Source: a virus
Virus record (IMG/VR): IMGVR_UViG_3300025118_000098
Location: 1-29,242 of that record
DNA: 29,242 nt
Direction: 5' to 3' (one strand)
Shown here: positions 933-25,792 of the stretch, one piece after another
How positions within the stretch are numbered: position 1 is the first letter of the stretch
Layout of the letters: the number at the start of each line of letters is the position of its first letter
The notes under the pieces: model-generated
Database searches by the model: none
What the model was told of the DNA's origin: nothing
Seen by the model: the letters and a program-made list of their open reading frames with translations, nothing else
Program-made: the position numbers and the translations under genes

Positions 933-1565
933 ATGGCATACACTTCAATAGATTTATGGGATGCACAAAACCCGGCACGACCTTTTGCATCTGGTGTAAA
1001 TACAGGGCAAAATACGGGAGCTACTATGGGAGTATATATAAATGGTACATATTACCCTAAAGACCCAAGGCTTGATAAGGAACGCTATAAGTTTACCAAA
1101 GAAGGTGGGTGGACGGGAGATAATCCTGCTTGGACTATAGACTCTCAAGGCAATATTGTCAGACCTGCAGCACAGACAGGTTTTGGTGGTACTGGTATTG
1201 GTTATTCAGACCTAGGTGCTGGAAATACCATTGGACAGAATGCTTTTTCTAATTTTAATACTCCACTTGCACCAGATCTTGTAGAACCACGGATGGCTTA
1301 CTATGGCAGTGGAGCTGGACAGGCATTCGGTGATATGTCTCCTGCCAAAAGAAGATTTTTCCAAAATAGCTTTGAGCAAATCTACGATGAGTTTCTTGGA
1401 TACCAAAAAGATCAGATGAGTAAAGGAATACCAGAAGATGCAACGTTCTTTACTGACTATCTAGAAACCGATCCGTTTACAAAAAGATATGGCAAATTAA
1501 CTCCAAGTGAAAGAGGAGAGTCTACAGCTAGGTATAGTCCTAAAGCTAGACATATATATTTTTAA
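933..1565 (+). CDS. Hypothetical virion-operon protein, 210 aa
   Basis: A 210-residue protein with no family I can name. The ATG at 933 is preceded by an AGAGGAT ribosome-binding site. The N-terminal half is rich in Gly, Asn, Thr and aromatic residues (for example VYINGTYYPKDPRLDKE). The C-terminal half is more helical and charged, with Phe and Tyr scattered through it. There is no signal peptide or membrane segment. The stop codon overlaps the start of the next, very large gene by one base (TAATG), which suggests translational coupling. By position it is likely a virion or assembly protein; its biochemical role cannot be read from the sequence. Confidence 0.72.
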   Translation: MAYTSIDLWDAQNPARPFASGVNTGQNTGATMGVYINGTYYPKDPRLDKERYKFTKEGGWTGDNPAWTIDSQGNIVRPAAQTGFGGTGIGYSDLGAGNTIGQNAFSNFNTPLAPDLVEPRMAYYGSGAGQAFGDMSPAKRRFFQNSFEQIYDEFLGYQKDQMSKGIPEDATFFTDYLETDPFTKRYGKLTPSERGESTARYSPKARHIYF

Positions 1566-4500
1566 TGGGAAGACCATCACAGGAATACGTAGACAACTCA
1601 ATAAAAAGACTTGAGGAAGATAGGCAGAAGGGAGTTACCACACAGGTAATGGAACGTGCAATGCCTATTGCCGCAGACGTATGGAACCTAGGTTTTGAGG
1701 CAATGCCTGAAGCGGCTTATTCTCTGGCTACAGGCTTGATACCTGAAAGTATTCCTTATATAGGTGGCGGTGGTGAAAGAGCAATAGAGACAAGAAAAAT
1801 AATAGCTGAACGTAGGAAGATGAATAAGGAGATAGCAGAAAAGTTTGGTGCGTTTAAAGCAGGCCCCGTAGGCATAGGAACTTCTCCTGAATATGCCAAA
1901 CATTTATACGAAACAGGAAAAATACTAGAGAAGAGATTTGAGGAACGTCCGTGGTGGCAGGAGATAGGAACAAGTGTATTTAATCCTTTGGATTGGGCAT
2001 TAGGTGCCGGAATAGGCAAGGTGGTTGGAGCGGGAATCAGGGGAGTAAAAGCCCTGCGTGGTACAGGACTAGCTGCAAAGGCTCTGAAGCCTGCAGCAGA
2101 AACTAATGTAGAACTTCTTCCTTCTTGGTTTAAAAGATTCAATATTCCTGAAACAGACTTAAGAAAAGCCGCAGATAATATTCCTACTCCACCTATTACG
2201 CAACCTACTACTCAGGCACTAGCTATTCCCTTTAATGTTATTCCGCCTATTGCTAAAGCGGCAAGACCTTTACAACAAGGTGTAATGGATATTGCCGACC
2301 CTACTTTATATCCAATTCCATTACCTACACAAACTCCAGGTACTCAGTTACAACAAGCTGCAGAAGGACTAGGACGTGAGATGGCAGAAGGTCTTGGCAT
2401 AAGACCAATTCAACAGCAATTATTACCCGGACAACGTGCGATTAATATAGCAGAACAACAAAGGATGCCTTTCGATGTAACTAAAGGTGAGGGATTGACT
2501 CCACTAGCTAGAACCAAAGATGTGCTTGAGGGGCTGGAAATAAAAAAACCAGATATATTACCCGAAAGATTTAAAAAGTTTGACCTTCCAGACATTCCTA
2601 TTGTAGCTAGACCAAGAGAAAGTTCAATGAAATATCGTCCGGCTGGTGTAGAGGGCGAAAGATGGATTAATCCAAAAGATATACTTGGCCCGTCAGAACA
2701 AGCCACAATTGATAATTTTAGATCTCTTTTAAGTAGCCCTCAGAAGTTAAGTGGTGTACACATACTCCCAGATAAACTAGCTGCTTTAATGCTTACTAGA
2801 AATACTAAACGATTATTTAGTGAAGCAGAGCAACTGGATATATTTAATTCTTTTGCAAAGAACATGGATGAAGCTGAGTCAAATATGTTTGGTGCATCAG
2901 TTGGTAGATTTGAAACAGCTTCTGAAATCCGAAATAAGGCACTTAGAAACATAAGTGAAGCAGAAGAAATAGAAGCTGCACGTTTTAATGTACAAGCATT
3001 TGAAACTCCTTTCTTTAAAGCTAAACCTATAAAAGGATATATAAACGGTAAAATAGTTCCGTCTGCAAAAGAGTCTCCTGAACTTCTTCAATCAGGTGAA
3101 AATATGGTTATATCAATGCATGGTGGCAGTTCAAAAATGTTTGAGAAATTAACAAGAACTGGTGTTGCAGAAGGGCAAGAAAAAATATCTTGGAAAAATA
3201 CATTAAAGGCAATAGTTACTGATGTACATGGGCCTAAATGGTTTAGGTTTGTACCGGCACTTACAAAATTTGCTGCACCGGAATACAAGCGTGGCGTAAG
3301 CTGGGCTGAGTCAGTAGGTATTGATGGTATATATGATACCCTTATAGAGCCTATGTCTAAAGCTATTACCGCTACCAAACCATCTTATGAAGCTAGAGAA
3401 CTAGCTAGAGGAGGACAACTAACTGAAGGGGCTAAAGCTCTTATGGGTAACATGAGGAATTTGTTTCCCGGAGATGATATTACTGCAGCTTCATTATATA
3501 AGACTAACCTAAGAGTTCTGGTAGGTAGACTAGGCCCCCATCAAATGGATAAGCCTTTAAGGGAAATATTAGATAATCCTGAAGAAGTACACAGGATGAT
3601 GATGGATGTATTTGAAGCAGCCTTTGAAGAGCTTTATAATAATAAAGCATATACAGGAATGTTTAATCGGCTTGATGATGAAATGCTGCAGGGATTACGT
3701 TCTGGAAAATTTAACACACAGAAGGAATGGGATCGTATACAAACAAGACTAGAAGAGTTACAAGCAGAGGCTATAAGTAAGGGGCAAACAGTAAGCAGCA
3801 GTGGACTTGCTGGCCCTTATGCTCTGAATGATTCAATAAAGGCTTTTCATTCTATCTTTAATCTAGGTACTATTCCAAACGAATATGCTATACATCAGCT
3901 TGCGACTTTATTAGGCCCTAATGTAGGTAAAGCTCTGTTAGCTAAAAGAGTAAGCACCATTGCAAATAGATTATCTAGAATACCGGGAATGAGTGCACTT
4001 GCTCCTGTTGGGCGTGTGCTTGGATTAAAAGGAATAGGAAACTCTACTCCACAGGAACTTATATGGAATCTAATATCCTTACCCAAAAGTCTTAGAGCAT
4101 CATTTGACCTATCGTTTGCTTTTAGGCAGGGAATGGTGTTGCTAGCACATGATCCCAAAGCATGGAAAAGTTCTTTTAATATGATGCTTAAAACTGCATT
4201 ACCGGGTGGAGAACGAGTTGCACTTGTAGTTGATAATTCAATTAAAAATCATGAGTTATATCCTGTATCTCAAAGGGCAGGATTAGATTTAACAGACGTG
4301 ACCGGCATGCTTAATATAACAGCTAGAGAAGATGAATTTCAGTCAGCCTTGGTACGTGGTATTCCATATATAAGGGCATCTGAAAGAGCGTATGTGACTA
4401 TGGGTAATAAGTTACGTTTTGATACGTTCCTGAATCGTGTTAGAGACTATGAGATGGTAATGAGAAACGCAGGTAAAGAGATGTCTTCATTTAGGAAAGA

Positions 4501-6154
4501 CCCAGAGTATTGGGATGCATTAAGTTGGAATGCTAAATTTATAAATGATGCTACTGGAAGAGGCCCATTGCCTAGAGCAATGACAGATGCCTATGGAAGT
4601 CATTGGGCAAAGACAACTTATTCTGTGATGAACGCATTTCTATGGTCACCAAGATTTTTAACTTCACGTATAAGACTTCCCTATTCTGCCATGATGGCTT
4701 CAAGAAAAATGGGTAATTCTACGGCTAGAGCAGCAATATCAGGTGTGTCAACAGGACTTGTTTCATGGGTAGGTACCGGTGTAAGCCTTATGCTTTTCTT
4801 TAAATACTTTATACCCGGAGCAGATGCAGGAATAAATCCTAATGCAAGTGACTTTGGAAAGGTTAAGATAGGAAATACTACATTTGATATATGGGCTGGT
4901 TATGCTCCTTTGGCAAAAGCAGTAGCTCAAACAGCATCAGGAGAAAGAGAAACCACTACGGGAAAGACTATGGATGTAGACAGGCTAGATGTTCTAGGAA
5001 GATTTGCCGTATCAAAGTTTTCTCCTGCAGGACAGGCAGTTAAAAAATATGCTATAACAGGAGAGGGATTCTTTGGTGAGGATGCAGATATATGGACAGA
5101 CATGAAAAAACCTGCATATACACAAAGTAGCTTATGGTATCAGATGGTAGTTCCAATGATGATAGAAACTATACATGATGCTTATGACGAATATGCAACC
5201 CCTATGGTTCCTGCAGAAATGGCAGAGAGAATTGGAGTAGATCCTTCAGAACGTAGAGCCGGATGGGATGCTTATCTTAGAATAGCAGGTGCGGGTATCG
5301 CAGAAACATTTGGTATAGGTACATCTACATATATAACTAAAGAGGATATAGCCAAAGAACTTACCTCTGCATGGGAATCTCCTTTGGGGTATGAAGAATT
5401 ACCAGAGATGGGCAAAGAACCCGGTATAGTGACACAACAGACGGTTAAGCAGATAGGAAGAGAAAAAGAGACTGCAAGAGGTATGGAAAGAACTTCCGGA
5501 TTAACCGGGGAACTTGCAGAACTTAATAGAAACGAACAGGATTCTATAAACAATATAGGTACTATAGGACTGACTATCGGTGGTCAAACTATGTCTGTAA
5601 ATGAATGGATTCAAAGTTATGAGATGCAGAATATAAAAGGTGTCCCAGATGCAGTAAGAAGCAAAATAGGTGACCTATTCTTTTCTATACGTTCTGACTT
5701 CTTTTCCAGAAAAGACCAGTCTATGTATGGAGAGGAATGGAAAGATATTACTGAACAAGAACTACAGCAGATGGACTTTAAAAATAGAAAACTTGCAGAG
5801 TGGAGAAAGATAAGGTCTGGAGCACGGGGAGCTGATGAATATAATAAGATGCTGGATTCGTTTGAAAATAGTCTTCAGAAATCTGCTCATCCAGAGGCAT
5901 CTATGGCTTTAGCATGGGTTAGAATGAACGCATATGATATAAATATACCGGAAAATATTCTTCCTCACTTACCGTATATAACTCAGGTTAAATACGACAT
6001 GGCTAGAAAACTAAGAAGTTCGGGAAGTCCATTTGTTGAAGGATTTGGTGCAGAAGAAAGGCGTGTTCCCGAATCTGTAAGAGAAAAAAGACAGGCTCTG
6101 GAGCAACAAGAAAGGCAGAAAAAACCATTGCTGCAGGAATTGTATAAAGGATAA
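1565..6154 (+). CDS. Giant virion-associated protein, probable DNA-ejection/internal virion protein (large polyvalent-protein-like)
   Basis: At 1529 residues this is by far the largest gene here. The N-terminal third is Pro-rich and helical, with a Gly/Ala-rich, weakly hydrophobic patch (ALGAGIGKVVGAGIRGV). The middle is alpha-helical and charged. Residues about 825-1130 contain motifs I associate with large phage polyvalent/ejection-type proteins: a SLRASFDLSFAFRQG block, SERAY followed by NKLRFDTF, FINDATGRG, and NAFLWSPRFLTSRIR. One hydrophobic segment at about residues 1055-1083 could cross a membrane. After it come DFGKVKIGNTTFDIWAG and RFAVSKFSPAG. The C-terminus is charged and coiled-coil-like. 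Position just upstream of scaffold and capsid genes fits a protein packaged in the head and ejected with DNA. The assignment rests on remembered motifs and size, with no enzymatic residues identified. Confidence 0.6.
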   Translation: MGRPSQEYVDNSIKRLEEDRQKGVTTQVMERAMPIAADVWNLGFEAMPEAAYSLATGLIPESIPYIGGGGERAIETRKIIAERRKMNKEIAEKFGAFKAGPVGIGTSPEYAKHLYETGKILEKRFEERPWWQEIGTSVFNPLDWALGAGIGKVVGAGIRGVKALRGTGLAAKALKPAAETNVELLPSWFKRFNIPETDLRKAADNIPTPPITQPTTQALAIPFNVIPPIAKAARPLQQGVMDIADPTLYPIPLPTQTPGTQLQQAAEGLGREMAEGLGIRPIQQQLLPGQRAINIAEQQRMPFDVTKGEGLTPLARTKDVLEGLEIKKPDILPERFKKFDLPDIPIVARPRESSMKYRPAGVEGERWINPKDILGPSEQATIDNFRSLLSSPQKLSGVHILPDKLAALMLTRNTKRLFSEAEQLDIFNSFAKNMDEAESNMFGASVGRFETASEIRNKALRNISEAEEIEAARFNVQAFETPFFKAKPIKGYINGKIVPSAKESPELLQSGENMVISMHGGSSKMFEKLTRTGVAEGQEKISWKNTLKAIVTDVHGPKWFRFVPALTKFAAPEYKRGVSWAESVGIDGIYDTLIEPMSKAITATKPSYEARELARGGQLTEGAKALMGNMRNLFPGDDITAASLYKTNLRVLVGRLGPHQMDKPLREILDNPEEVHRMMMDVFEAAFEELYNNKAYTGMFNRLDDEMLQGLRSGKFNTQKEWDRIQTRLEELQAEAISKGQTVSSSGLAGPYALNDSIKAFHSIFNLGTIPNEYAIHQLATLLGPNVGKALLAKRVSTIANRLSRIPGMSALAPVGRVLGLKGIGNSTPQELIWNLISLPKSLRASFDLSFAFRQGMVLLAHDPKAWKSSFNMMLKTALPGGERVALVVDNSIKNHELYPVSQRAGLDLTDVTGMLNITAREDEFQSALVRGIPYIRASERAYVTMGNKLRFDTFLNRVRDYEMVMRNAGKEMSSFRKDPEYWDALSWNAKFINDATGRGPLPRAMTDAYGSHWAKTTYSVMNAFLWSPRFLTSRIRLPYSAMMASRKMGNSTARAAISGVSTGLVSWVGTGVSLMLFFKYFIPGADAGINPNASDFGKVKIGNTTFDIWAGYAPLAKAVAQTASGERETTTGKTMDVDRLDVLGRFAVSKFSPAGQAVKKYAITGEGFFGEDADIWTDMKKPAYTQSSLWYQMVVPMMIETIHDAYDEYATPMVPAEMAERIGVDPSERRAGWDAYLRIAGAGIAETFGIGTSTYITKEDIAKELTSAWESPLGYEELPEMGKEPGIVTQQTVKQIGREKETARGMERTSGLTGELAELNRNEQDSINNIGTIGLTIGGQTMSVNEWIQSYEMQNIKGVPDAVRSKIGDLFFSIRSDFFSRKDQSMYGEEWKDITEQELQQMDFKNRKLAEWRKIRSGARGADEYNKMLDSFENSLQKSAHPEASMALAWVRMNAYDINIPENILPHLPYITQVKYDMARKLRSSGSPFVEGFGAEERRVPESVREKRQALEQQERQKKPLLQELYKG

Positions 6155-9725: not shown

Positions 9726-11222
9726 ATGCCTACAATTCAGGGACGGACACGTAAAGAATTACGCCAGAGTATTGGCTATAACCTAGGAGCCATGCGTATA
9801 GGTGAAGTTACTACTACTGCAAGCGATACAGTCACTCTTATAGATTCATCTCTTACTACAATTATAGGTGGAGATGATGAACATAAGGGTAAGTGGATAG
9901 TATTTACTTCCGGTAGTAATGACGGTGATATAGCAAGAGTAACAGATTACACAGCATCTAGTACTACACTAACATTTGTTGCAGGACAAGGTGATACTAT
10001 AATAGCTACTGCTGATGGGGATTCATACGAGTTATGGGATATGGATTACAATCCAGACATGATCCATGACATGATAAACCAAGCAGTAATCAACGCTACA
10101 GGACACGTATATGACCCCGTAGAAAAACTGGATTTACACTCTAATGGTAGGCAATTACGATTTGACGTACCTTCAGGGTTGTCTATGGTTCAGGATATAT
10201 ACTTCCGGGATAAGGTGGACTCTACTACCTTACTCAATCTAAATGATACCCTTGATGAGTCTACAACTTTAATAACAACTACATTAAACGGTGCTATTAG
10301 TGATGCAACAGCTACTTCTGTAACCGTTACTTCTGCTACTACATTAAGAGCTAACCAAGTTATAACAGTAGGTTCAGAAGAGATGTCTATAAGTAGTATC
10401 TCTTCTAATACATTGACAGTTTCAAGAGGAGCAAACAGTACTACCGCAGCTACACACTCTGACGGTGCTGATGTTCTTATATATCCGGTAACTGACACAG
10501 AAGATAAAAAGCAGGGAACTGCATCTAATAAGTTTATAATTTCAGCAAGTGGTGGAGCAGGTAATATAGTAACAGACTCCATAACAAGCAAAGATATCAG
10601 TAAATATGACTACTTAGAGGGTTGGGCTAAGATTACAAGAAGTAGTGGAACTGCCACTGAAGCAGGAGATTTGCAGATACTACTTGATGACACGGCTAAT
10701 TGTGTAAGTGTACTAGAAACACTTAGTCTTCCTATTCTTAAGGATGATACTTGGACATTCTTTAGGGTTAAACTAGGTAATCCAGAGCTAGATACTGCAA
10801 TAATATCTATAGGTTTAAAGTACACTACAGACCTTGGAGCCTGTACTATCTGGCTAGATGACATCAGGGTTGTAAGAAACGACTCTGCTCAGTGGGAGAA
10901 AGTACCTAGAAATCTATGGAAAATAGATAAAGAATCTAACGATATAGTATTTGATTCTTATTTCAAATCACTTGCATCGTATAAATTATTGAAGTTAGTA
11001 GGTGGAGAAAAGCCAGCTCTATTGAGTGCTGACTCTACTGCAAGTGAGATAGACGATCAGTATATTATAGCTACGGCTACTGCTTTTGCACTATCTTCTG
11101 CATCAGGCGGGCCTGCTACAGACCCGGATGCACGCAGACAACAGGCTGCTTTCTGGTTCGGTATATCAGAGCAGAGTAAACGTGCCTTCCCTATGCTTAG
11201 AAACGTAAGGATGGTTAGTTAA
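9726..11222 (+). CDS. Large beta-rich tail/virion structural protein with a CBM-like domain
   Basis: A 498-residue protein. The N-terminal ~110 residues contain beta repeats rich in Thr/Ser/Asp (IARVTDYTASSTTLTFVAGQ), then a helical stretch (DMIHDMINQAVINATGHVYD). Residues about 185-255 form an Ig/beta-sandwich-like block (ATSVTVTSATTLRANQVITV). Residues about 265-385 read as a jelly-roll of carbohydrate-binding-module type, ending ACTIWLDDIRVV, a closing strand common in such modules. The C-terminal ~110 residues are mainly helical. It sits two genes before the fiber-like gene and overlaps the next gene by one base. A tail or adaptor component contacting the host surface is the most likely role. 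The TGGAG ribosome-binding site lies in a small CTCC-TAT-GGAG hairpin. Confidence 0.65.
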   Translation: MPTIQGRTRKELRQSIGYNLGAMRIGEVTTTASDTVTLIDSSLTTIIGGDDEHKGKWIVFTSGSNDGDIARVTDYTASSTTLTFVAGQGDTIIATADGDSYELWDMDYNPDMIHDMINQAVINATGHVYDPVEKLDLHSNGRQLRFDVPSGLSMVQDIYFRDKVDSTTLLNLNDTLDESTTLITTTLNGAISDATATSVTVTSATTLRANQVITVGSEEMSISSISSNTLTVSRGANSTTAATHSDGADVLIYPVTDTEDKKQGTASNKFIISASGGAGNIVTDSITSKDISKYDYLEGWAKITRSSGTATEAGDLQILLDDTANCVSVLETLSLPILKDDTWTFFRVKLGNPELDTAIISIGLKYTTDLGACTIWLDDIRVVRNDSAQWEKVPRNLWKIDKESNDIVFDSYFKSLASYKLLKLVGGEKPALLSADSTASEIDDQYIIATATAFALSSASGGPATDPDARRQQAAFWFGISEQSKRAFPMLRNVRMVS

Positions 11223-13279
11223 TGGCTAATAAGGTAGTATCTCCAAATGAGATATATCTCAACGAAACCTATTTCCCTATAGAACGTCCTGTACAGAGCG
11301 TACTTGCGTCTATATACCCAAGTAAGGTAGTCATAGGTGATACCAGTAAGGACTCACAGTTACGGTCATCCATCATAGCATGGTCTGACTGGCGTGGTGG
11401 CATAGGTATAGACAGGATGGAAGGTGGAGAGGTTAATAGAGCATGGTGGAGTGACTGTCAGCTTAGATATAAGAATCATTTAGTACTTGGAAACTATGCA
11501 AACGCAACAGATACCCATGCACACGGACTTGTAAAATCAGGTGTAGGTACTGGAATAGCAGCCATAACTGAGTTTAAAGACAAGATATATGCCGTATGGA
11601 ACGGTAGTATATCTGAATCTCCAAAGATATTTGTATATAATAATGCATCAGATTATTGGTGGGATGGTAGGGTAGCAGATCAGGCTATAGGAGTTAACGG
11701 AAGCGATAGCTTTGGAGTTCCTGACCAGGTAACAGATTCTCTAAACTTTACCGATAGGTCTAATAATAACTACCTTGTACTTGCACATTATGACAGTAAC
11801 GGAACTGGGTATAGTTATGCTACTGTTCCTAGTTATGACGGAAGTAGTAATGCCGCATGGACTAACGATGCTAAAGATACCAAGTACCTTGCAGAATGGG
11901 ATGGTAAGTTATGGGGTATATCTTATGCGGGTCAGCTATGGCACGCAATAACACCCGGAACAGAGACAGATGATGCCCTTTTACCTCTACCTGAAGGGTA
12001 TGTAACAGGATTATTTGTAGCTAGAGATACACGTGGTGAGCCTATATTATATGCAGCTACAAAGCAGGGATTATGGGCACATGATGTCATGCACGCTAAG
12101 TTTGTACAGACAGAAATGGATTTTCCTTTTCATCCACACGCTGGAAAAGGCACTACCAGGTGGCGTGACAGTATATATTTCCCCAGTGGATTAGGATTAT
12201 ACAAATATATCAACGGATCTAACAATGCCGTACTTACTGTTGTAGGGCCGGACAGAGATGACGGTCTACCCACTGATAATAGAGGAACTATAATGCTTGC
12301 AGAAGGTACTCATAATGAGTTGCTGGTAGGCGTAGATTCTACTACAAATCCCACAGTTACATCGACTGATAGTGTTCCATATCAGTGGAGTATGCACCAT
12401 TTCGGCTCTCCTGTTATAGATAACGCTTCAGGATACAGCTCTATACTTGGATATAACGATTTAGGGTGGGAAGCTAAGTGGGTAGCATCTACCGCAGGTA
12501 GAAAGATAGATGCCATGCACGTTTCCAATGCATACTCTGATGTGAATGAAAATTATAGATTATGGTGGGGATTTAATGACAGGGTATATTATATGAAGCT
12601 ACCTGTAGATATCATAAACCCCTCTAAGGTTACAGAATTTGAGTATAAATCTTCAGGAGTACATGAGACTCCTTGGTTCAATGCAGGACAGAGTGAGATA
12701 GATAAATTAGCATTAGAGTTAAAGGTTGAAACACAGGATTTATCTACCAAAGAAACTGTACAGGTTCAATATGCTACTGATTATAATGAAAGCTATTCAA
12801 GTTTTACCGATAGTTCTGGTGATGATATCAGTACTATAACAAGTACAACCCTTGGAACAACATCAGGAATAACTGAATTTTCGTTTAGGGATGGTAGCAA
12901 TAATCCTATAGGTAAAAAGTTTAGATCTATCAAGTTCAAACTAACTCTCGCTAGGTCAACCACTACAAGTGAGGCTAACTATCTAAAAAATAGCCCTGAT
13001 GTAGTGTCTATGACCTTGATATGGAGAAAGAAATTAGATGCTAAATGGGGGCATCAGGTGGGTGTAAGTCTAAACAGAGACTATAAAGGCAAGACTCCCA
13101 AACAACTTAGGTCAGCTCTCATATCTGCAATAGAAAGCAGTACGTTGGTAGAGTTTACGTTCAGAGATGACGATAGTACCAACAGAAACTACTATGTAGA
13201 TGTCACTTCTGCTACCGGACTGGAGTCTACAGGCTATGACGAGAGGGGATCAAGTACAATAATGCTGGTGGAACCATGA
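11222..13279 (+). CDS. Large tail protein, possibly beta-propeller-like
   Basis: A 685-residue beta-rich protein with many Trp/Tyr/Gly/Asp blade-like repeats: ITEFKDKIYAVWNGSI, YLAEWDGKLWGISYAGQLW, ILYAATKQGLWAHDV, WRDSIYFPSGLGLYKYINGS and NYRLWWGFNDRVYYMKLP. This spacing (about 50-60 residues, with a strand containing L/I-W-x-x) suggests a beta-propeller. The C-terminal ~200 residues carry FEYKSSGVHETPWFNAGQSE and SFRDGSNNPIGKKFRSIKFK, typical of beta-sandwich virion domains. The start codon overlaps the upstream stop by one base. Position suggests a tail tube-end/nozzle or host-contact protein of a short-tailed phage. Specific function is not shown. Confidence 0.65.
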   Translation: MANKVVSPNEIYLNETYFPIERPVQSVLASIYPSKVVIGDTSKDSQLRSSIIAWSDWRGGIGIDRMEGGEVNRAWWSDCQLRYKNHLVLGNYANATDTHAHGLVKSGVGTGIAAITEFKDKIYAVWNGSISESPKIFVYNNASDYWWDGRVADQAIGVNGSDSFGVPDQVTDSLNFTDRSNNNYLVLAHYDSNGTGYSYATVPSYDGSSNAAWTNDAKDTKYLAEWDGKLWGISYAGQLWHAITPGTETDDALLPLPEGYVTGLFVARDTRGEPILYAATKQGLWAHDVMHAKFVQTEMDFPFHPHAGKGTTRWRDSIYFPSGLGLYKYINGSNNAVLTVVGPDRDDGLPTDNRGTIMLAEGTHNELLVGVDSTTNPTVTSTDSVPYQWSMHHFGSPVIDNASGYSSILGYNDLGWEAKWVASTAGRKIDAMHVSNAYSDVNENYRLWWGFNDRVYYMKLPVDIINPSKVTEFEYKSSGVHETPWFNAGQSEIDKLALELKVETQDLSTKETVQVQYATDYNESYSSFTDSSGDDISTITSTTLGTTSGITEFSFRDGSNNPIGKKFRSIKFKLTLARSTTTSEANYLKNSPDVVSMTLIWRKKLDAKWGHQVGVSLNRDYKGKTPKQLRSALISAIESSTLVEFTFRDDDSTNRNYYVDVTSATGLESTGYDERGSSTIMLVEP

Positions 13280-13981: not shown

Positions 13982-16486
13982 ATGACTATTAATTTAAAAG
14001 GAAATTTATACCAAGATGACGGTGATGCCGTAAGCGATGCGACAGTACAGGCTTTAACGGCAGGAACTACTACAGTAATAGCCACAGATACTACAGATAG
14101 TGACGGTGCGTGGGATTTTGATGGCATTGCAGAAGGTAAGTACGATGTAAAGATTTCAGCAGGTACATCTGTTAGATATATTAAATGGAATGATGAAATA
14201 TCTCTTAGAGAGCTCGATGTACGTAATGATAACGGTAACACAAGACCTGCTGCTACGTTCACAAACCTCACTAATAACGCAGCTAATCAGGTAGCTGTAT
14301 TCAGCGGTGCTAATACTACCAGAGCAGACGATGATGAGATATATACTTCCTTTAAGCTGGCAAATAGTGCAGCAGAATTGATTGAATATGGACGTATGAC
14401 TGTTGTTGCTAAAGATGTAACAGATGGTACAGAGGATGGACAGATTGAGTTCGATGTCATGAAGGCAGGAACCCTTACCAAGGTATGGACAATCACATCA
14501 AGTGATGCTGCTGCTATGTCATTCGATATGAACGTAGATTCTCTGACTATAGGGTCAGGTGCAGACACAGATATATCCCTTACCTTTGATGCCAATACAG
14601 CAGATGGTGTAATCACATGGATGGAAGATGAGGACTACTTCCAGTTCTCTGATGAAATACTTATGAATAGTACCGAGAAGATATTGTTCGGTGATACTGC
14701 AACATTCATACATCAATCATCAGACGGTGTTATGACTATTGATGGAGAAGCAACTATAGATCTTAATGCTTCTACCGCAGTTCTAGTAAGCAATGACTTA
14801 AAACTGAACAGCGATTCTGCTGTTCTAGGATTTGGAGCAGATAACGATACCACGTTAACACATACAGATGGTACTGGCTTAACTCTAAATTCAACCAATA
14901 AATTAACCTTTGGGGATACAGGTACATTCATACACCAGTCTTCTGACGGTGTACTTACAATTACGTCAGACACTACAGTAGACATCAACGGTGCAGTAGA
15001 ATTTGATGGTGCTTTGACCGGTATAACAAATATCACGTTATCCGGTACACTCTCAGATGGTAACTATACGTTTGATACCAGCGGTAATGTCAGTGGTCTT
15101 GGCACTGTCAGTTCAGGTACTATTACAACCTCTGGAAATATAGAGCTAGGTCATGCTAGTGATACGACTATTGCTAGGTCAGGTTCTGGAGCAATCACGG
15201 TTGAAGGTACGCAGGTACTTCTTGCAGGAGCACAAACAGGCATTACAACAATAACTAATGCAAGTTTAGTTGTTGGTAGAGATGCAGACAACGATATAGA
15301 TTTCACTACTGACAATAATATTAGGTTTAGAGCTGGTGGTGAAGACCAACTTACATTAACTGATGGAGCTTTAACTCCATCTTCTAATGCTATTGTGGAT
15401 TTGGGAACCGATGCTCTTGAGTTTAAGGATGCATACTTTGATGGCACGTTAGAAGCTGATGCGATTACCATAGGTGGAACTAACATAGTAACGGGTAGCC
15501 TCATAACTACCCTAGGTACTATTAGTGCAGGTACTTGGAACGGCACTGCAATTGCTTCTGCGTATCTTGATTCAGATACAGCACATTTAAGTGGAACACA
15601 AACCTTTACTGGAGCAAAAACCTTTACTGATACAGTTACCGTAGGTGTAGACGATGATGGAAAAGATGTTAAGTTCTTTGGGGAAACTGCCGGCTCATAT
15701 ATGTTATGGGATGAATCAGAAGATGATTTGATATTAGCAGGTGTGCCGAAATTATTTATAGGCGATACTGCCAATTCCAATCAGACTATAGGGCTTACTA
15801 TAAATGCGGCAGGTAATGAAGGTGAAATAATAACACTTAAAGCTAGTGACTTTGGTGGAACTGATGCAGACGGAAGTGGTCATGATATGACTGCTAAAAC
15901 AGAATCTGACACCTATGGGTTTATAGGAAAGTCAAGTAGCACCCAAGGTGGATTAGTATTAAAAGGTTATTCATCTGCTAAAAGAGGAATGCAACTTGTT
16001 GGGGCAGCTACTACAGATGATACTGCTAAAGATGTAAATGCTAACTCTCATGTAGTAATCCGTTGTGAGACATATGATGGAAGCACTAGTGTAACTACTC
16101 CGGGTACTGATGCCAATCTATTAACTGTCCGAGGTCCCGGTGGTACTGTTAGGTTCATTTGGGACATAGAAGGCTCTGCTCACGCTGATGTTGAATGGAC
16201 TACATACGATAAAGAAGATGACCTTGGATTAGTTAAAGGTATGGAACAAGAGTTACTTCTTAGAGAAGATGAGGGACAAACAGAGCGTAGAAAATATTTA
16301 GAAACAGTAGGCATTATTGGTAAAAACTCTTGGCATATGGAAAACGGCAAACAAAGAGCCATGATTAATACAACAAAGCTATCCATGTTACATCATGGTG
16401 CTTTGATACAGGTAGCAGACAAGCTAGATAGATTATCAGAAGAAAATAAACAGCTACGACAAAAGCTAGAAGCCTTGGAGGTTTAA
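13982..16486 (+). CDS. Tail fiber / receptor-binding-type protein
   Basis: An 834-residue protein with a GGAGGT ribosome-binding site inside the end of the previous gene. Residues 4-70 resemble a carboxypeptidase-regulatory/SpaA-like beta-sandwich (ALTAGTTTVIATDTTDSDGAW). Residues about 75-600 are repetitive beta structure rich in Thr/Asp/Gly, with recurring GDTxTFIHQSSDGV and LSGTL/TISAGT turns, as in trimeric phage fibers. From about residue 715 a different globular region starts (GTVRFIWDIEGSAHADVEW). It includes YLETVGIIGKNSWHMENGKQ and ends in a heptad coiled coil (LDRLSEENKQLRQKLEAL) that could trimerise or chaperone folding. No S74 peptidase signature was confirmed. Likely host-recognition fiber. 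Confidence 0.75.
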   Translation: MTINLKGNLYQDDGDAVSDATVQALTAGTTTVIATDTTDSDGAWDFDGIAEGKYDVKISAGTSVRYIKWNDEISLRELDVRNDNGNTRPAATFTNLTNNAANQVAVFSGANTTRADDDEIYTSFKLANSAAELIEYGRMTVVAKDVTDGTEDGQIEFDVMKAGTLTKVWTITSSDAAAMSFDMNVDSLTIGSGADTDISLTFDANTADGVITWMEDEDYFQFSDEILMNSTEKILFGDTATFIHQSSDGVMTIDGEATIDLNASTAVLVSNDLKLNSDSAVLGFGADNDTTLTHTDGTGLTLNSTNKLTFGDTGTFIHQSSDGVLTITSDTTVDINGAVEFDGALTGITNITLSGTLSDGNYTFDTSGNVSGLGTVSSGTITTSGNIELGHASDTTIARSGSGAITVEGTQVLLAGAQTGITTITNASLVVGRDADNDIDFTTDNNIRFRAGGEDQLTLTDGALTPSSNAIVDLGTDALEFKDAYFDGTLEADAITIGGTNIVTGSLITTLGTISAGTWNGTAIASAYLDSDTAHLSGTQTFTGAKTFTDTVTVGVDDDGKDVKFFGETAGSYMLWDESEDDLILAGVPKLFIGDTANSNQTIGLTINAAGNEGEIITLKASDFGGTDADGSGHDMTAKTESDTYGFIGKSSSTQGGLVLKGYSSAKRGMQLVGAATTDDTAKDVNANSHVVIRCETYDGSTSVTTPGTDANLLTVRGPGGTVRFIWDIEGSAHADVEWTTYDKEDDLGLVKGMEQELLLREDEGQTERRKYLETVGIIGKNSWHMENGKQRAMINTTKLSMLHHGALIQVADKLDRLSEENKQLRQKLEALEV
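14687..14962 (+). repeat. Two-copy internal repeat in the fiber gene
   Basis: A stretch starting at about 14687 and another at about 14909 encode near-identical peptides (FGDTATFIHQSSDGVMTI and FGDTGTFIHQSSDGVLTI), 222 bases or 74 codons apart. Third-codon positions have diverged, so the duplication is old. It marks a repeating beta unit of the fiber shaft. Confidence 0.75.
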
Positions 16487-19396: not shown

Positions 19397-19656
19397 TCTC
19401 CTTCCACGAGGATAATACCAACTGCATCATCATCATCCTTTTTCCAATCTTTATCTATCTTAGGAAATAGACGGCCAGAAAGATCACGTACTTTATCTAT
19501 ATGACCACCCCATACAAGTTCATCTAACAAACCATGTATTTCCTTAGCATCTTTAGCTAGCATATTAAAATGATCTTTCAATTCATCAAGAGTCATACTC
19601 TTTTGCCAATCTTCTGGCAAACCAAACCTTTTGTATCCTTTTATTTTAATTACCAT
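19393..19656 (-). CDS. Hypothetical protein between ATPase and resolvase genes
   Basis: An 87-residue protein starting with a short strand (MVIKIKGYKRFGLPEDW), then helices with heptad-like Leu/Ala positions (LDELKDHFNMLAKDAKEIHG) and an acidic end (DWKKDDDDAVGIILVEGE). It has an AAGGAG ribosome-binding site and overlaps the ATPase stop by seven bases and the RusA start by four. The family is not recognised. Its position suggests a replication or recombination accessory. The gene is compact, with no Cys residues. Confidence 0.65.
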   Translation of the reverse strand: MVIKIKGYKRFGLPEDWQKSMTLDELKDHFNMLAKDAKEIHGLLDELVWGGHIDKVRDLSGRLFPKIDKDWKKDDDDAVGIILVEGE

Positions 19657-20921
19657 GCGGGCTCCTTATCTTTGTATTTATATTCTCCAGTACCTGCCTT
19701 CTCCCAATACCCATCCTTGTCTACGTTCTCTGATAGCCTGGCCCTAACTGTGCCGGGTCTAGACCCACAGGCTTCTGCTATATCTTCAACAGATATGGCC
19801 TGGTACTGTCCGGTTGGCTCAATCTGGTCACTTAAGAATATCTTTATTCTTTCTACCAATGGTAGTGCGGCTCTAGTATCTGCATCTTCTGTTACGTCTG
19901 CCTGTTCTACCTTGACAGACTGAACAATCTCGTTGGCATCTTCTTCAAAGATAAACTCTAGGGCAAAAGGCTGATGCTTCTTACTCATGTTTGTTTTCCT
20001 ATGATAGAAGCCTATCCTGAGTTTGTTGTCTGCTATAGTCTTGCTTGCCCTCATCTCCCACACATTACGTGCTTCAGCTACGGTGTACGTACTACCTATA
20101 GGGCCTATGGCTGACTGCTTGGCAACGTGGTCAATCACTATGGATGTGATCCTAAGTGAGCGTATGGAGTTGAATAGCTGTACGGTAGTATCAGCTTCAT
20201 TGATGCGACCACCTACGGCTGCACCCTTACTGTCTACTATAATCATGTCAGCTTTCTCATCTGCTATACGCTTGGCTATGGTATGTACGTTGTCATTGAA
20301 CGGCCCATCCATATACTGGTAGCATAGTTCGGGAGTCTCTATGCCTAGACCGGAAGCCAGTGCCTTGAGTCGTTCATCTAAGTTTTGTTCACCGTCTTCC
20401 CAGTCCAGGTATAGTATCTTCCCCTTGAGGGGGGTCAGGCCTACGGCTGATATCTCCTCAGTAATCAGCAAAGACAGAAAGAGAGACACGTAGCTTTTAC
20501 CTATCCCTGATTCTCCATATAGTATTAAGGGTACATCTCTTCTAATCAAAGGGTGCAGAAGATAGGGTACTTCCTTGCGTGGTTCTAGTTTACCTATCTT
20601 CACTAAGGGGTGACCCTCTCTATGCTTCCTCATGCTCTTAACACATACATATTCGATAATTGATTCCCAGTCCGGGGTATCGAGTCTTGCTTTAAGTATC
20701 TTTGCTATCTCTGATTTAGATCTAGCAGAAGACATGTTCTGTCGTTGGGTTATTATGTGTGAGTTACTTAGGTCAACATATTTGGTAGGGTCTGCTACCA
20801 CTGTCATGTCTCCCATAAGGTTGCCATCTCTTTCCCGGAATTTCTCCATTGTTATAGAGATGCCTTCATCCTCAAACTCATACTTATGATACCCAACCAT
20901 TAAGGTTTCTTTTATACTCAT
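19650..20921 (-). CDS. RecA-like/AAA_25 P-loop ATPase, probable RepA-type helicase
   Basis: A 423-residue ATPase. Residues 1-120 are an N-terminal region of unknown fold. Walker A is GESGIGKS (136-143). KILYLDWEDGEQNLDERL (about 168-185) is the RepA-type strand after the P-loop, and ADMIIVDSKG (about 214-223) is Walker B with D220. IVIDHVAK (251-258) includes the sensor His. The C-terminal ~45 residues are a winged-helix/HTH-like domain (AISVEDIAEACGSRPGTVRA). This matches RepA/DnaB-like replicative helicase-type ATPases seen in phages and plasmids, suggesting a role in unwinding or loading at replication. The ATGA overlap with its upstream gene shows tight coupling. No primase domain is fused. 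Confidence 0.75.
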   Translation of the reverse strand: MSIKETLMVGYHKYEFEDEGISITMEKFRERDGNLMGDMTVVADPTKYVDLSNSHIITQRQNMSSARSKSEIAKILKARLDTPDWESIIEYVCVKSMRKHREGHPLVKIGKLEPRKEVPYLLHPLIRRDVPLILYGESGIGKSYVSLFLSLLITEEISAVGLTPLKGKILYLDWEDGEQNLDERLKALASGLGIETPELCYQYMDGPFNDNVHTIAKRIADEKADMIIVDSKGAAVGGRINEADTTVQLFNSIRSLRITSIVIDHVAKQSAIGPIGSTYTVAEARNVWEMRASKTIADNKLRIGFYHRKTNMSKKHQPFALEFIFEEDANEIVQSVKVEQADVTEDADTRAALPLVERIKIFLSDQIEPTGQYQAISVEDIAEACGSRPGTVRARLSENVDKDGYWEKAGTGEYKYKDKEPAW

Positions 20922-21157
20922 ACGTCTATTCCTTTAAAGGTTTGTTTATCTTCTCTTGGCTTGGGTGGTATGTACTTCTTCTGTTCCTTATGTATGTTCA
21001 TCTCCAGAGTACCTTCTTCAGTAGATAACTTACTGACTAGATCCTCTAAAGCGTTAGCGATGCGTGCTGCCTGCTGCCTAGAATGACAACCCCCACACCA
21101 TAAGGAAGTGTGGGGATAGTCTAGTTCAGGACAGGAGTTTACTCTGTCGTTATGCAT
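20918..21157 (-). CDS. Small Cys/His protein upstream of the ATPase
   Basis: I choose the ATG at 21157 over an earlier one at 21196, because an AAGG ribosome-binding site sits just upstream and the earlier start would run deep into the nuclease gene. This gives 79 residues. It has a Cys/His cluster, SCPELDY then LWCGGCHSRQQAA (C8, C22, C25, H26), that could bind zinc. A helix and basic tail (EQKKYIPPKPREDKQTFKG) follow. It overlaps the nuclease stop by eight bases. Function unknown; a replication accessory is plausible. Confidence 0.6.
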   Translation of the reverse strand: MHNDRVNSCPELDYPHTSLWCGGCHSRQQAARIANALEDLVSKLSTEEGTLEMNIHKEQKKYIPPKPREDKQTFKGIDV

Positions 21158-22091
21158 TGGATACCTTCTTCTTTCTTTCCTTCTTGTCGAACACACTATA
21201 GGAAAGTTGAGTATACAATGAACACATTGTATTGAATACCAACGCTGGTTTTTCCCAATCGGTTATAGTCTTTACCTCAAACTCCTCATCAGTCTTGGAT
21301 AGCCTGACAACTGCACCTGATATACCACCGTATATGTCAGCCAGTTGTTTGTTGCCGTTCCATATAGAATGACAGTAAGCAGCTACTTGGTATCCAGCCT
21401 CATCATATATACCTGAGCCTGTCTTCCAATCAAACACTACTAACTTGTGATCAGGTGTAAGTCCAACTGCATCTACTGTACCTGCATAAAGAGGTAGATT
21501 GAATTTCTTAGCACCCGGAACAGCCGGGTCTGGAACATATCCGTCTATGTAGGTAGCAAACTCTGTCTCAAGGAACACCATGTCCGGGTAGTTAGCCGTG
21601 ATAAACACTAGCCAATTATCAAACGCCTTTGCCACCTCAGTATGCAAAGACAAAGCATCGGGGCGAAGTTGATACATTTCCTCTCCAACTTCTGACCATT
21701 CGGTATAGGGGTTGTCCATCTTGTACCTGATTGCTTTGTTAATTAGGTCATGTGCTTGAGTACCTATCTTACCCGCATGTTTGAACTCTTCACTCGGTGC
21801 AGACTTGATATCCTTTATGAACTCATCTACTGGAGTATCATGTCTTGGCTTGTATTCGTTTTTCCAATGTTCTCCTGCCTTCTCGGCTACCTTCTTTGCA
21901 TACCATTGGGGTAGTGCATGTTTAACTGTAGTGTAGGATAGTATGTGTGTAACAGAAGGATACATTGCTACTGCACCTTCTAGTTCATACCCCCTACCTG
22001 CACCACGTTTACTTGTTACTCTCGTCATGTAGGTTTCTCTCGATATATCTTTACGAGGCCAAACCTTTATCATCTCTCGTGTTTCTTCCAT
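21150..22091 (-). CDS. PD-(D/E)XK exonuclease, RecB/Cas4-like family
   Basis: A 313-residue protein with the full set of RecB-type motifs: YPSVTHILSY (44-53), GTQAHDLINKA (110-120), ETEF (165-168), GTVDAVG (204-210, D207) and VVFDWKTGSG (about 218-227, D221 and K223). It then has YQVAAYCHSIW (234-244), the Q/Y motif of this family. These nucleases cut DNA ends in recombination or repair. Here it sits between a possible ssDNA-binding protein and the ATPase/RusA, like lambda-exo style phage recombination modules. Motifs and spacing are clear; there are no Cas4 cysteine clusters for an iron-sulfur centre, so a plain RecB-like exonuclease is preferred. It starts after CAGGAG with a long spacer. 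Confidence 0.82.
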   Translation of the reverse strand: MEETREMIKVWPRKDISRETYMTRVTSKRGAGRGYELEGAVAMYPSVTHILSYTTVKHALPQWYAKKVAEKAGEHWKNEYKPRHDTPVDEFIKDIKSAPSEEFKHAGKIGTQAHDLINKAIRYKMDNPYTEWSEVGEEMYQLRPDALSLHTEVAKAFDNWLVFITANYPDMVFLETEFATYIDGYVPDPAVPGAKKFNLPLYAGTVDAVGLTPDHKLVVFDWKTGSGIYDEAGYQVAAYCHSIWNGNKQLADIYGGISGAVVRLSKTDEEFEVKTITDWEKPALVFNTMCSLYTQLSYSVFDKKERKKKVSNA

Positions 22092-24450: not shown

Positions 24451-25416
24451 TTATTTACAGGTCTGTAATTTTTTTACAAGTTCTGTAAATCCCTTTGCTG
24501 CCATTGCTGGAACGACTGCGTTTCCAAGGGCTCGTAAGCGTTGCTCCATCCCAATGGGAAGCCCATTAACCACTCGACAAAAAGAGGGTTCAATCTCTGG
24601 CATGTGAGCGAGTGTGTGTGCCCATCCGAGGTCGTCATCGATTGTGGGTGGTGCAAACCTGAGCGTGTAGCTGCATCCGGGAGCATGTGTTTCACTTTCG
24701 AATAGGTTCCTCCCTTGTAATCCCTGGATAGAGCAGTCGGCCAGTTCTTCCTTACCATTGCTTTGTATGTCGCTTGTAGCTTCAGCTTTATCCTCGGTGC
24801 TTTGCCTTCCATCTCTTTCCTCTTGTAGTCCTCGTTCCCACCTTGGCTGTCCGATGCCGATGCCGTTCTCCACATTTTTAAGGTAGGGCTTGAGGTAGTC
24901 TGTGTCTGTGACACATGCGAGCATGAGTAGTCTTCTCCTACGGTGTGGTAAGCCAACTTCACTCGCTGAGAATAAGTCTTCCGTAACTGTGTAACCCATT
25001 TCTTGTAGGTCTTTTCTGATTGTATCGTGGTAGTATCGTGAGATGTTTTCGACATTCTCAAGAAAGAGAGTTGGGTGTCCGAGCTCTCTTGCAATCCTCT
25101 TGACTTCATGCCAGAGGTTTCTTGGATCGTCATCTCCGAGTCTCTTGCCTGCAACTGAGAAGGGTTGGCAAGGGAATCCCCCAATGAGGATGTCCACCTT
25201 GCCATGAAGTCCTTCTCCTCTGAAGGTTCTAAGGTTAGACCAGATAGGAGCATCGTCAAGGTTTTCTTCTTTAATTCTTTGAGCCAAGATTTGGCCAGCC
25301 GTGATTTCGTTTTCCACGTACATGACTGTTCTAGTTTTTGCAACGCTCTTGACTCCGAGTTCAAGTCCTCCGATTCCCGTGCATATTGAGACGGTACGTA
25401 AATTATACTCATTCAT
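24451..25416 (-). CDS. dcm: DNA (cytosine-5) methyltransferase
   Basis: A 321-residue protein with the C5-methyltransferase motifs in order: motif I SICTGIGGLELG (10-21), motif IV GGFPCQPFSVAGK with catalytic C83, ENV (120-122), motif VIII EVGLPHRRRRLLMLA, and motif X RLRALGNAVVP (293-303). The region between about 165 and 260 is the target-recognition part and is low in conserved features (LADCSIQGLQGRN). It methylates cytosine at carbon 5 in a site that cannot be predicted here, probably to protect phage DNA from host restriction; no cognate nuclease is seen. GGGAGAG precedes the ATG. The same strand is also open in the +1 frame for nearly the whole gene, carrying another Dcm-type C-terminal motif (see findings). 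Confidence 0.9.
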   Translation of the reverse strand: MNEYNLRTVSICTGIGGLELGVKSVAKTRTVMYVENEITAGQILAQRIKEENLDDAPIWSNLRTFRGEGLHGKVDILIGGFPCQPFSVAGKRLGDDDPRNLWHEVKRIARELGHPTLFLENVENISRYYHDTIRKDLQEMGYTVTEDLFSASEVGLPHRRRRLLMLACVTDTDYLKPYLKNVENGIGIGQPRWERGLQEERDGRQSTEDKAEATSDIQSNGKEELADCSIQGLQGRNLFESETHAPGCSYTLRFAPPTIDDDLGWAHTLAHMPEIEPSFCRVVNGLPIGMEQRLRALGNAVVPAMAAKGFTELVKKLQTCK

Positions 25417-25792
25417 TTACTCTCCCTTTATTTCTGAATCTTAATGTGTCTTTATTCACATACTTATCATAGAGTTCATCTCTCTCTTTAAAGAGTTCCC
25501 CTATCCTTTTCTTTAGGCGTTCATTCTCTTCCTCTAGCTGCCTTGTCTTGTAGCTTTTATATTTCAGACCTTCTTCCAATGGCTTGATGACATGGTCATC
25601 TGCCAACGGCTCAAGATCTCTGCTCTCACGTGCTTCATCTATGTCTTCTCTGCTCATCTGTCCTGTTTCTACTGTACTGTAGAACCCACACTCTATACAC
25701 TCCACCGATGTATACCATCCATCCTCGTTCTCTCTGTGCATCTCGTCATCGAGACAGTTTGGACATGTTGTTTCATCGCTTGAATCACTCAT
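25409..25792 (-). CDS. Zinc-ribbon plus coiled-coil protein
   Basis: A 127-residue protein with a GGAGGA ribosome-binding site. An N-terminal zinc ribbon, C10-x-x-C13 (TCPNCL) and C32-x-x-C35 (VECIECGFYS), is of the restriction-alleviation/Lar-like layout. It continues with acidic helix (SREDIDEARESRDLEPLADD) and a coiled coil at about residues 75-112 (RQLEEENERLKKRIGELFKE). It overlaps the methyltransferase start by eight bases, so the two are probably co-translated. A role near restriction or DNA binding is suggested only by layout and neighbour. Confidence 0.68.
   Translation of the reverse strand: MSDSSDETTCPNCLDDEMHRENEDGWYTSVECIECGFYSTVETGQMSREDIDEARESRDLEPLADDHVIKPLEEGLKYKSYKTRQLEEENERLKKRIGELFKERDELYDKYVNKDTLRFRNKGRVNE

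Follow-up and report, generated by a model that had tools for sequence, protein, structure and literature searches.

Two overlapping genes on the minus strand

The stretch of DNA analysed here as a whole, hereafter the window, is an IMG/VR virus record of 29,242 bases. On its minus strand lie two genes, A and B, which overlap almost completely. Neither carries an internal stop, and both lie at the positions first described for them. Gene A, in the dcm frame (24451..25416, 321 amino acids), carries motifs I–VIII and X and would be the catalytic subunit of a C5-cytosine methyltransferase, as judged from its Pfam match, the substitution pattern by codon position, the AlphaFold (AF2) model and Foldseek. 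Gene B (24474..25412, 312 amino acids, ATG at 25412) is nested in the +1 frame of A and is the proposed specificity subunit; it matches the PHROG family phrog_1008 ‘DNA methyltransferase’ (E 3e-16), is open beyond what shuffled sequences allow and is kept in relatives. The two starts read ATGAATG (25410..25416), with the ATG of A at 25416-25414 and that of B at 25412-25410, so that B begins 4 nt downstream of A. A Shine-Dalgarno-like GGGAG (25422..25426) lies 5 nt upstream of the ATG of A and 9 nt upstream of that of B, and this one element may serve both.

Residues 7-185 of A match PF00145 (E 1e-34), and A also matches dcm families. Motifs I, IV (PCQ), VI (ENV) and VIII are present on this single chain, whose catalytic core spans about residues 6-170 (24907..25401) according to PF00145, the motif patterns and AlphaFold. 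The core is predicted with confidence (most 10-residue blocks at pLDDT 92–97), and so are motif X and the C-terminal helix (QRLRALGNAVVP..., about residues 292-320, 24457..24543), with block means of 95 and 91 in residues 301-320. The stretch between them, in which A reads through the recognition region and motif IX (about residues 204-286, 24559..24807), is mostly an unstructured linker in the model, residues 204-254 and 273-286 falling below 50 and being predicted as disordered. The best fold matches found with Foldseek were M.HhaI and M.HaeIII.

The peptide of B begins MSIIYVPSQYAR. Its C-terminal half contains two putative recognition modules with approximate boundaries, the first (WRTASASDSQGG..., 24744..24872) ending where the second (WPTALSRDYKGG..., 24594..24743) begins, followed by motif IX (LNPLFVEWLMGFPLGWS, 24543..24593). 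The positions originally given for the last two, from 24743 and at 24593-24543, were borne out. A search of Pfam and NCBIfam found no family for B, a comparison of its profile with solved structures gave no match, and the AlphaFold model of its isolated C half is of low confidence (pLDDT 62, pTM 0.26), so the fold of B rests on homology.

Elsewhere in the window, three large plus-strand ORFs (1565-6154, 11222-13279 and 13982-16486; 1529, 685 and 834 amino acids) have no PHROG match at 1e-3, and two minus-strand genes (19650-20921 and 21150-22091) have weak helicase/primase and exonuclease matches. Such matches would fit a replication module in the vicinity of the methyltransferase.

Nested, fused and split relatives

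A scan of viral sequences with the window protein alone as query found no relatives, and therefore an alignment was used for searching. In tblastn against GenBank phages, the B and A queries matched identical DNA in several unrelated phages. An IMG/VR scan with the motif IV pattern only gave 80 loci (set 1), nearly all of which read ‘LADxxSxGLQG’ and ‘RVxDGVPxRVDRLRxLGN’ in frame A and, in the +1 frame, repeated WPTPxARDxKxG modules followed by LNPxWVEWLMGxPxGW. An independent scan with motif IX of B only gave 160 loci in viruses and in bacterial genomes of many phyla; among those with motif IV upstream, 137 of 148 have B in the +1 frame of A with A open from motif IV on, and motif X is recognised in A's frame in 134 of these 137. 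Set 2 comprises 134 non-redundant loci selected by motif IX of B, none of them in set 1. Hundreds of other phages and prophages share this arrangement, and for these the databases usually list one protein only. The deposited annotation is sometimes A and sometimes B, as in Synechococcus phage Ssp-JY39 and Acidovorax phage Alfacinha1, and in two loci (L003:1481-2596 and L005:820-1953) the B frame alone is annotated, the overlapping A with its PCQ and ENV motifs being left out. In a single case, Escherichia phage K1ind1, both overlapping frames are annotated, as a ‘C-specific methylase’ and an ‘Mte8-like protein’; no interpretation of the latter was found in the literature searched.

The same parts also occur outside the nested form. 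In Mycobacterium phage Batiatus, gp66 carries motifs I–VIII, LLPTPVARDFKG modules (pattern LPTPxARDxKG), EWMMGWPAGWV (pattern EWMMGWPxGWV) and GNGVCPQ in the same order as the window, the difference being that all are on one polypeptide in one frame. In Orcanus, gp40 and gp41 are two separate, non-overlapping genes, an argument that the recognition half is able to exist as a separate protein, and gene pairs with short overlaps are found in Twister (gp79/gp78), RemusLoopin, Tophat and Datway. Profile comparison of the C half of B with the C halves from the actinobacteriophages gave a probability of 98.4%. The existence of fused and split relatives means that relocation between frames has occurred in the history of the family, in one direction or the other. 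Several actinobacteriophage ‘DNA methylase’ pairs (L001:1989-2982, L093:516-1875, L094:373-1468, L095:342-2439 and L096:738-1791), annotated as two genes each, resemble natural catalytic/specificity splits, and hundreds of phage records match the C half. Few matches were obtained when plasmids were searched with a B protein.

These relatives bear on whether B belongs to the enzyme at all. Both frames might be translated with A active alone and B in a separate role, for example as a regulator or decoy, which would fit the start codon that B has of its own and the full catalytic motif set of A save a canonical motif IX and a recognition domain. However, B bears exactly the segments missing from A, these are joined to motifs I–VIII and X in the fused gp66, and A's own reading of the recognition region is predicted to be disordered. 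We consider such a separate role highly improbable.

Stop codons, starts and the constrained frame

The openness of each frame was assessed by shuffling: the protein of one frame was held fixed, its synonymous codons were permuted, and stops were counted in the other frame. In the window, the B frame has no stop in 312 codons, compared with about 10 expected and a minimum of 3 in 20,000 A-preserving shuffles. Between motifs VIII and IX, the B frame has no stop in the 80 loci of set 1 (10,102 codons; 104±8 under A-synonymous shuffles) and none in set 2 (90±6 expected), so the +1 frame does stay open over this region in relatives, which the original prediction had left as the question to be settled. 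On these counts, together with that for the window, a chance shadow ORF was rejected. The N half of the +1 frame carries stops in some relatives, yet far fewer than expected (62 versus 316±13 in set 1, where 59 of 80 loci are fully open versus 4.9 expected; 70 versus 292±11 in set 2). Conversely, in the recognition region it is frame A that is protected under B-synonymous shuffles, with 29 stops versus 301±12.5 in set 1 (74 of 79 loci open versus 4.2) and 49 versus 398±14.5 in set 2 (127 of 133 open versus 16). The third frame showed no comparable avoidance of stops (567 versus 556 and 466 versus 520 in set 1; 813 versus 719 and 556 versus 533 in set 2). The counts in both sets therefore mean that both frames are held open over most of their length, including where the other frame bears the conserved protein: there is selection for openness in both frames.

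The starts are coupled as well. In 46 of the 73 loci of set 1, an ATG of B is found at -6 to +10 nt from a start of A, the main forms being ATGTG (28) and NTGAATG (10). The same holds for 87 of the 133 loci of set 2, 64 of them with a spacing of +4. In a second group, which includes K1ind1, B starts about 80–175 nt inside A. This start arrangement favours independent initiation rather than frameshifting.

Which frame is constrained was read from the mismatch at the three codon positions of frame A. For motifs I–VIII it is.219/.165/.412 in set 1 and.220/.145/.438 in set 2; for the recognition region.266/.129/.165 and.318/.177/.156; for motif IX.339/.122/.127 and.310/.086/.119; and from motif X onward.173/.100/.384 and.166/.102/.338. 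The most variable position is thus the one that is synonymous in frame A in motifs I–VIII and X, and the one that is synonymous in the +1 frame in the recognition region and motif IX. Tallies per pair, although the substitution counts come from overlapping and phylogenetically non-independent pairs, agree: the peak is at A's third position for 2502 of 2589 pairs in motifs I–VIII and 1103 of 1220 in the tail from X, but at A's first for 354 of 471 pairs in the recognition region and 1598 of 1650 in motif IX. Moreover, amino-acid identity in motif IX is.837 in the B frame versus.631 in the A frame. The constrained frame therefore changes segment by segment, being A for motifs I–VIII and X and +1 for the recognition region and motif IX. 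A drop in the synonymous variability of the dcm gene had been named in the original prediction as a sign of true overlap, and A's third-position mismatch falls from.412 in motifs I–VIII to.165 in the recognition region and.127 in motif IX. C5-methyltransferases have a large domain formed by motifs I–VIII and X and a small domain formed by the variable region and motif IX (PMC3404938), and the assignment of frames matches this division.

In the N half of B, the amino acids are barely more conserved than those of the third frame, so that this half looks like a passenger of which only openness is needed. It had been taken at the outset for a plain shadow, which stands as far as the amino acids go, but its openness is selected and its own start codon lies beside the dcm start in most relatives; it is apparently a shadow by sequence, yet a translated one. 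The weak conservation of this half, and the absence of B from the Pfam and NCBIfam families, are also what would be expected if the whole of B were a by-product of the amino acids and codon usage of A and the database proteins with ‘WLMGFPxGW’ were mis-called. We give this hardly any credence, since stop avoidance goes far past the shuffles, constraint on the recognition region and motif IX falls on the +1 frame, B is open where A is broken, and homologous halves are real genes elsewhere.

The loci with a broken A deserve separate description. In L010, L020/L142, L187 and L220, the A frame is interrupted past motif VIII and B is open; motif X is still in A's frame, within a short ORF that has a separate ATG (L010:2398-2658, L142:2000-2266, L187:2000-2299 and L220:1916-2179). 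In L010, whose best segment is 58% identical to A of the window, a clear AGGAGG precedes the X ORF. Such loci would either encode an enzyme in three pieces or be in decay.

The usual C5-methyltransferase has its recognition domain, motif IX and motif X on a single chain. Here a single reading frame does not unite the parts, the recognition region and motif IX being constrained in a different frame from X. One polypeptide could still arise by two programmed frameshifts, from A for motifs I–VIII to +1 for the recognition region and motif IX, and back to A for X. The constrained segments do run in the order A, +1, A, and A is broken in the recognition region in L010, L020 and L187. However, two shifts would be required per enzyme, and they would leave unexplained why B is open over motifs I–VIII, why A is open over the recognition region and why the ATG of B is coupled to the start of A; in Orcanus, furthermore, both halves are separate non-overlapping genes. 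Because each frame is open where the shifted product needs no open frame, and because B has its own coupled start with the B frame upstream of the putative shift held open, we regard frameshifting as very unlikely. Of the three options that the original prediction had offered, true overlapping coding is strongly supported by the stop counts, the frame constraint and the shuffles, and frameshifting is disfavoured. The third was that one C-terminal type of phage Dcm proteins arose from the other by a frameshift; its idea of two alternative types, PTxxxRDxKGG...WLMGFPxGW and RLRALGNAVVP, has to be replaced: in nested loci the former is the recognition region and motif IX of the second subunit, and the latter is motif X of the first. 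What the dcm frame reads instead, ‘LADxxSxGLQGR’ and ‘RVxxGLP’, is a by-product.

A proposed enzyme of two subunits and its precedents

Taken together, the highly probable product of the locus is a single heteromeric C5-cytosine DNA methyltransferase, whose two proteins would be translated from overlapping frames of one stretch of mRNA and would come together in trans. For translation, assembly, activity, module specificity and biological role, we infer the following course. Ribosomes would enter at the common ribosome-binding site and begin either at the ATG of A or at that of B 4 nt downstream. A would provide the large domain, with motifs I–VIII, the unstructured linker and then motif X, and B the small domain, with a non-conserved N-terminal passenger followed by the two recognition modules and motif IX. 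Both would join into the active enzyme, in which the modules of B would set the sequence specificity, and this enzyme would methylate the phage DNA, probably to evade host restriction.

The number of modules per locus is 1–7, with a median length of 37 amino acids (218 loci), and similar modules are found at differing positions across loci. In L016, L019, L023, L024, L025 and L027, a nearly identical motif IX region goes together with differing sets of modules between VIII and IX, which suggests that modules may be gained and lost. Most modules fall in one large cluster under simple-linkage clustering; this cluster is joined by the common WPTPxxxD start, so that family counts are meaningful for small clusters only. 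In the multispecific C5-methyltransferases of the Bacillus phages SPR and phi3T, several short recognition modules with different specificities stand in tandem on a single chain in a single frame. The window family has short putative modules in tandem, but not the single chain and frame, and by analogy with the Bacillus phage enzymes the modules may be suggested to be exchangeable recognition units.

The closest precedent is M.EcoHK31I, which was reportedly described by Lee, Kam and Shaw in 1995 as an alpha and a beta polypeptide with the specificity YGGCCR. Beta is reported to be encoded within the alpha gene in a different frame, methylation requiring the two together; B (24474-25412) is likewise nested in A (24451-25416). 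The large polypeptide of M.EcoHK31I has motifs I–VIII and X and its small one motif IX, and the large one was also predicted to hold the recognition domain (PMC3404938). The distribution of motifs I–VIII and X in frame A and of IX in frame B is alike, whereas here the recognition domain is constrained in the frame of the small polypeptide and is repeated 1–7 times; moreover, EcoHK31I comes from a restriction-modification system and the window locus is a phage gene. In the two-subunit C5-methyltransferase M.AquI, the large subunit has motifs I–VIII and the small one IX and X (PMC3404938), unlike the window, where motif X is in A's frame. An AquI-like split does occur among the relatives, in Twister gp79/gp78, L029 and L073, and X is in the small subunit in 5 of the 148 loci selected by B and in Twister-like phages. 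In addition, fragments of several C5-methyltransferases complement each other in vivo, and for M.SssI this works best with a C-terminal fragment that begins between motif VIII and the recognition domain (PMC3404938). In view of M.EcoHK31I, M.AquI and fragment complementation, the two-polypeptide principle is not new. What appears to be new is the breadth across phages, the coupling of the two starts, and recognition modules that lie in B and are repeated there as a mosaic. No earlier description of the phage A/B overlap was found in a full-text literature search with incomplete coverage of subscription journals.

Beyond the window, we think it somewhat more probable than the contrary that many ‘orphan Dcm’ genes of phages and prophages are obligate two-frame genes, whose coupled starts yield a catalytic subunit together with a specificity subunit that is mosaic and often has several modules, that in a few lineages the enzyme is in three pieces with X as a small protein of its own, and that modules are exchanged while remaining open in both frames. 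To our knowledge, it is rare for two constrained proteins to overlap at length on the same strand; here the overlapping products would be the two domains of one enzyme, and the layout is kept in diverse phages and prophages. Since the frame that is under constraint is known for each segment, the family lends itself well to the study of selection on overlapping genes. The arrangement would explain phage Dcm annotations without a recognisable recognition domain, as well as the second-frame PHROG and GenBank entries named ‘DNA methyltransferase’, and a dcm frame that is cloned or annotated alone could give half an enzyme. The family would also supply a methyltransferase that is split by nature and whose recognition modules could be swapped.
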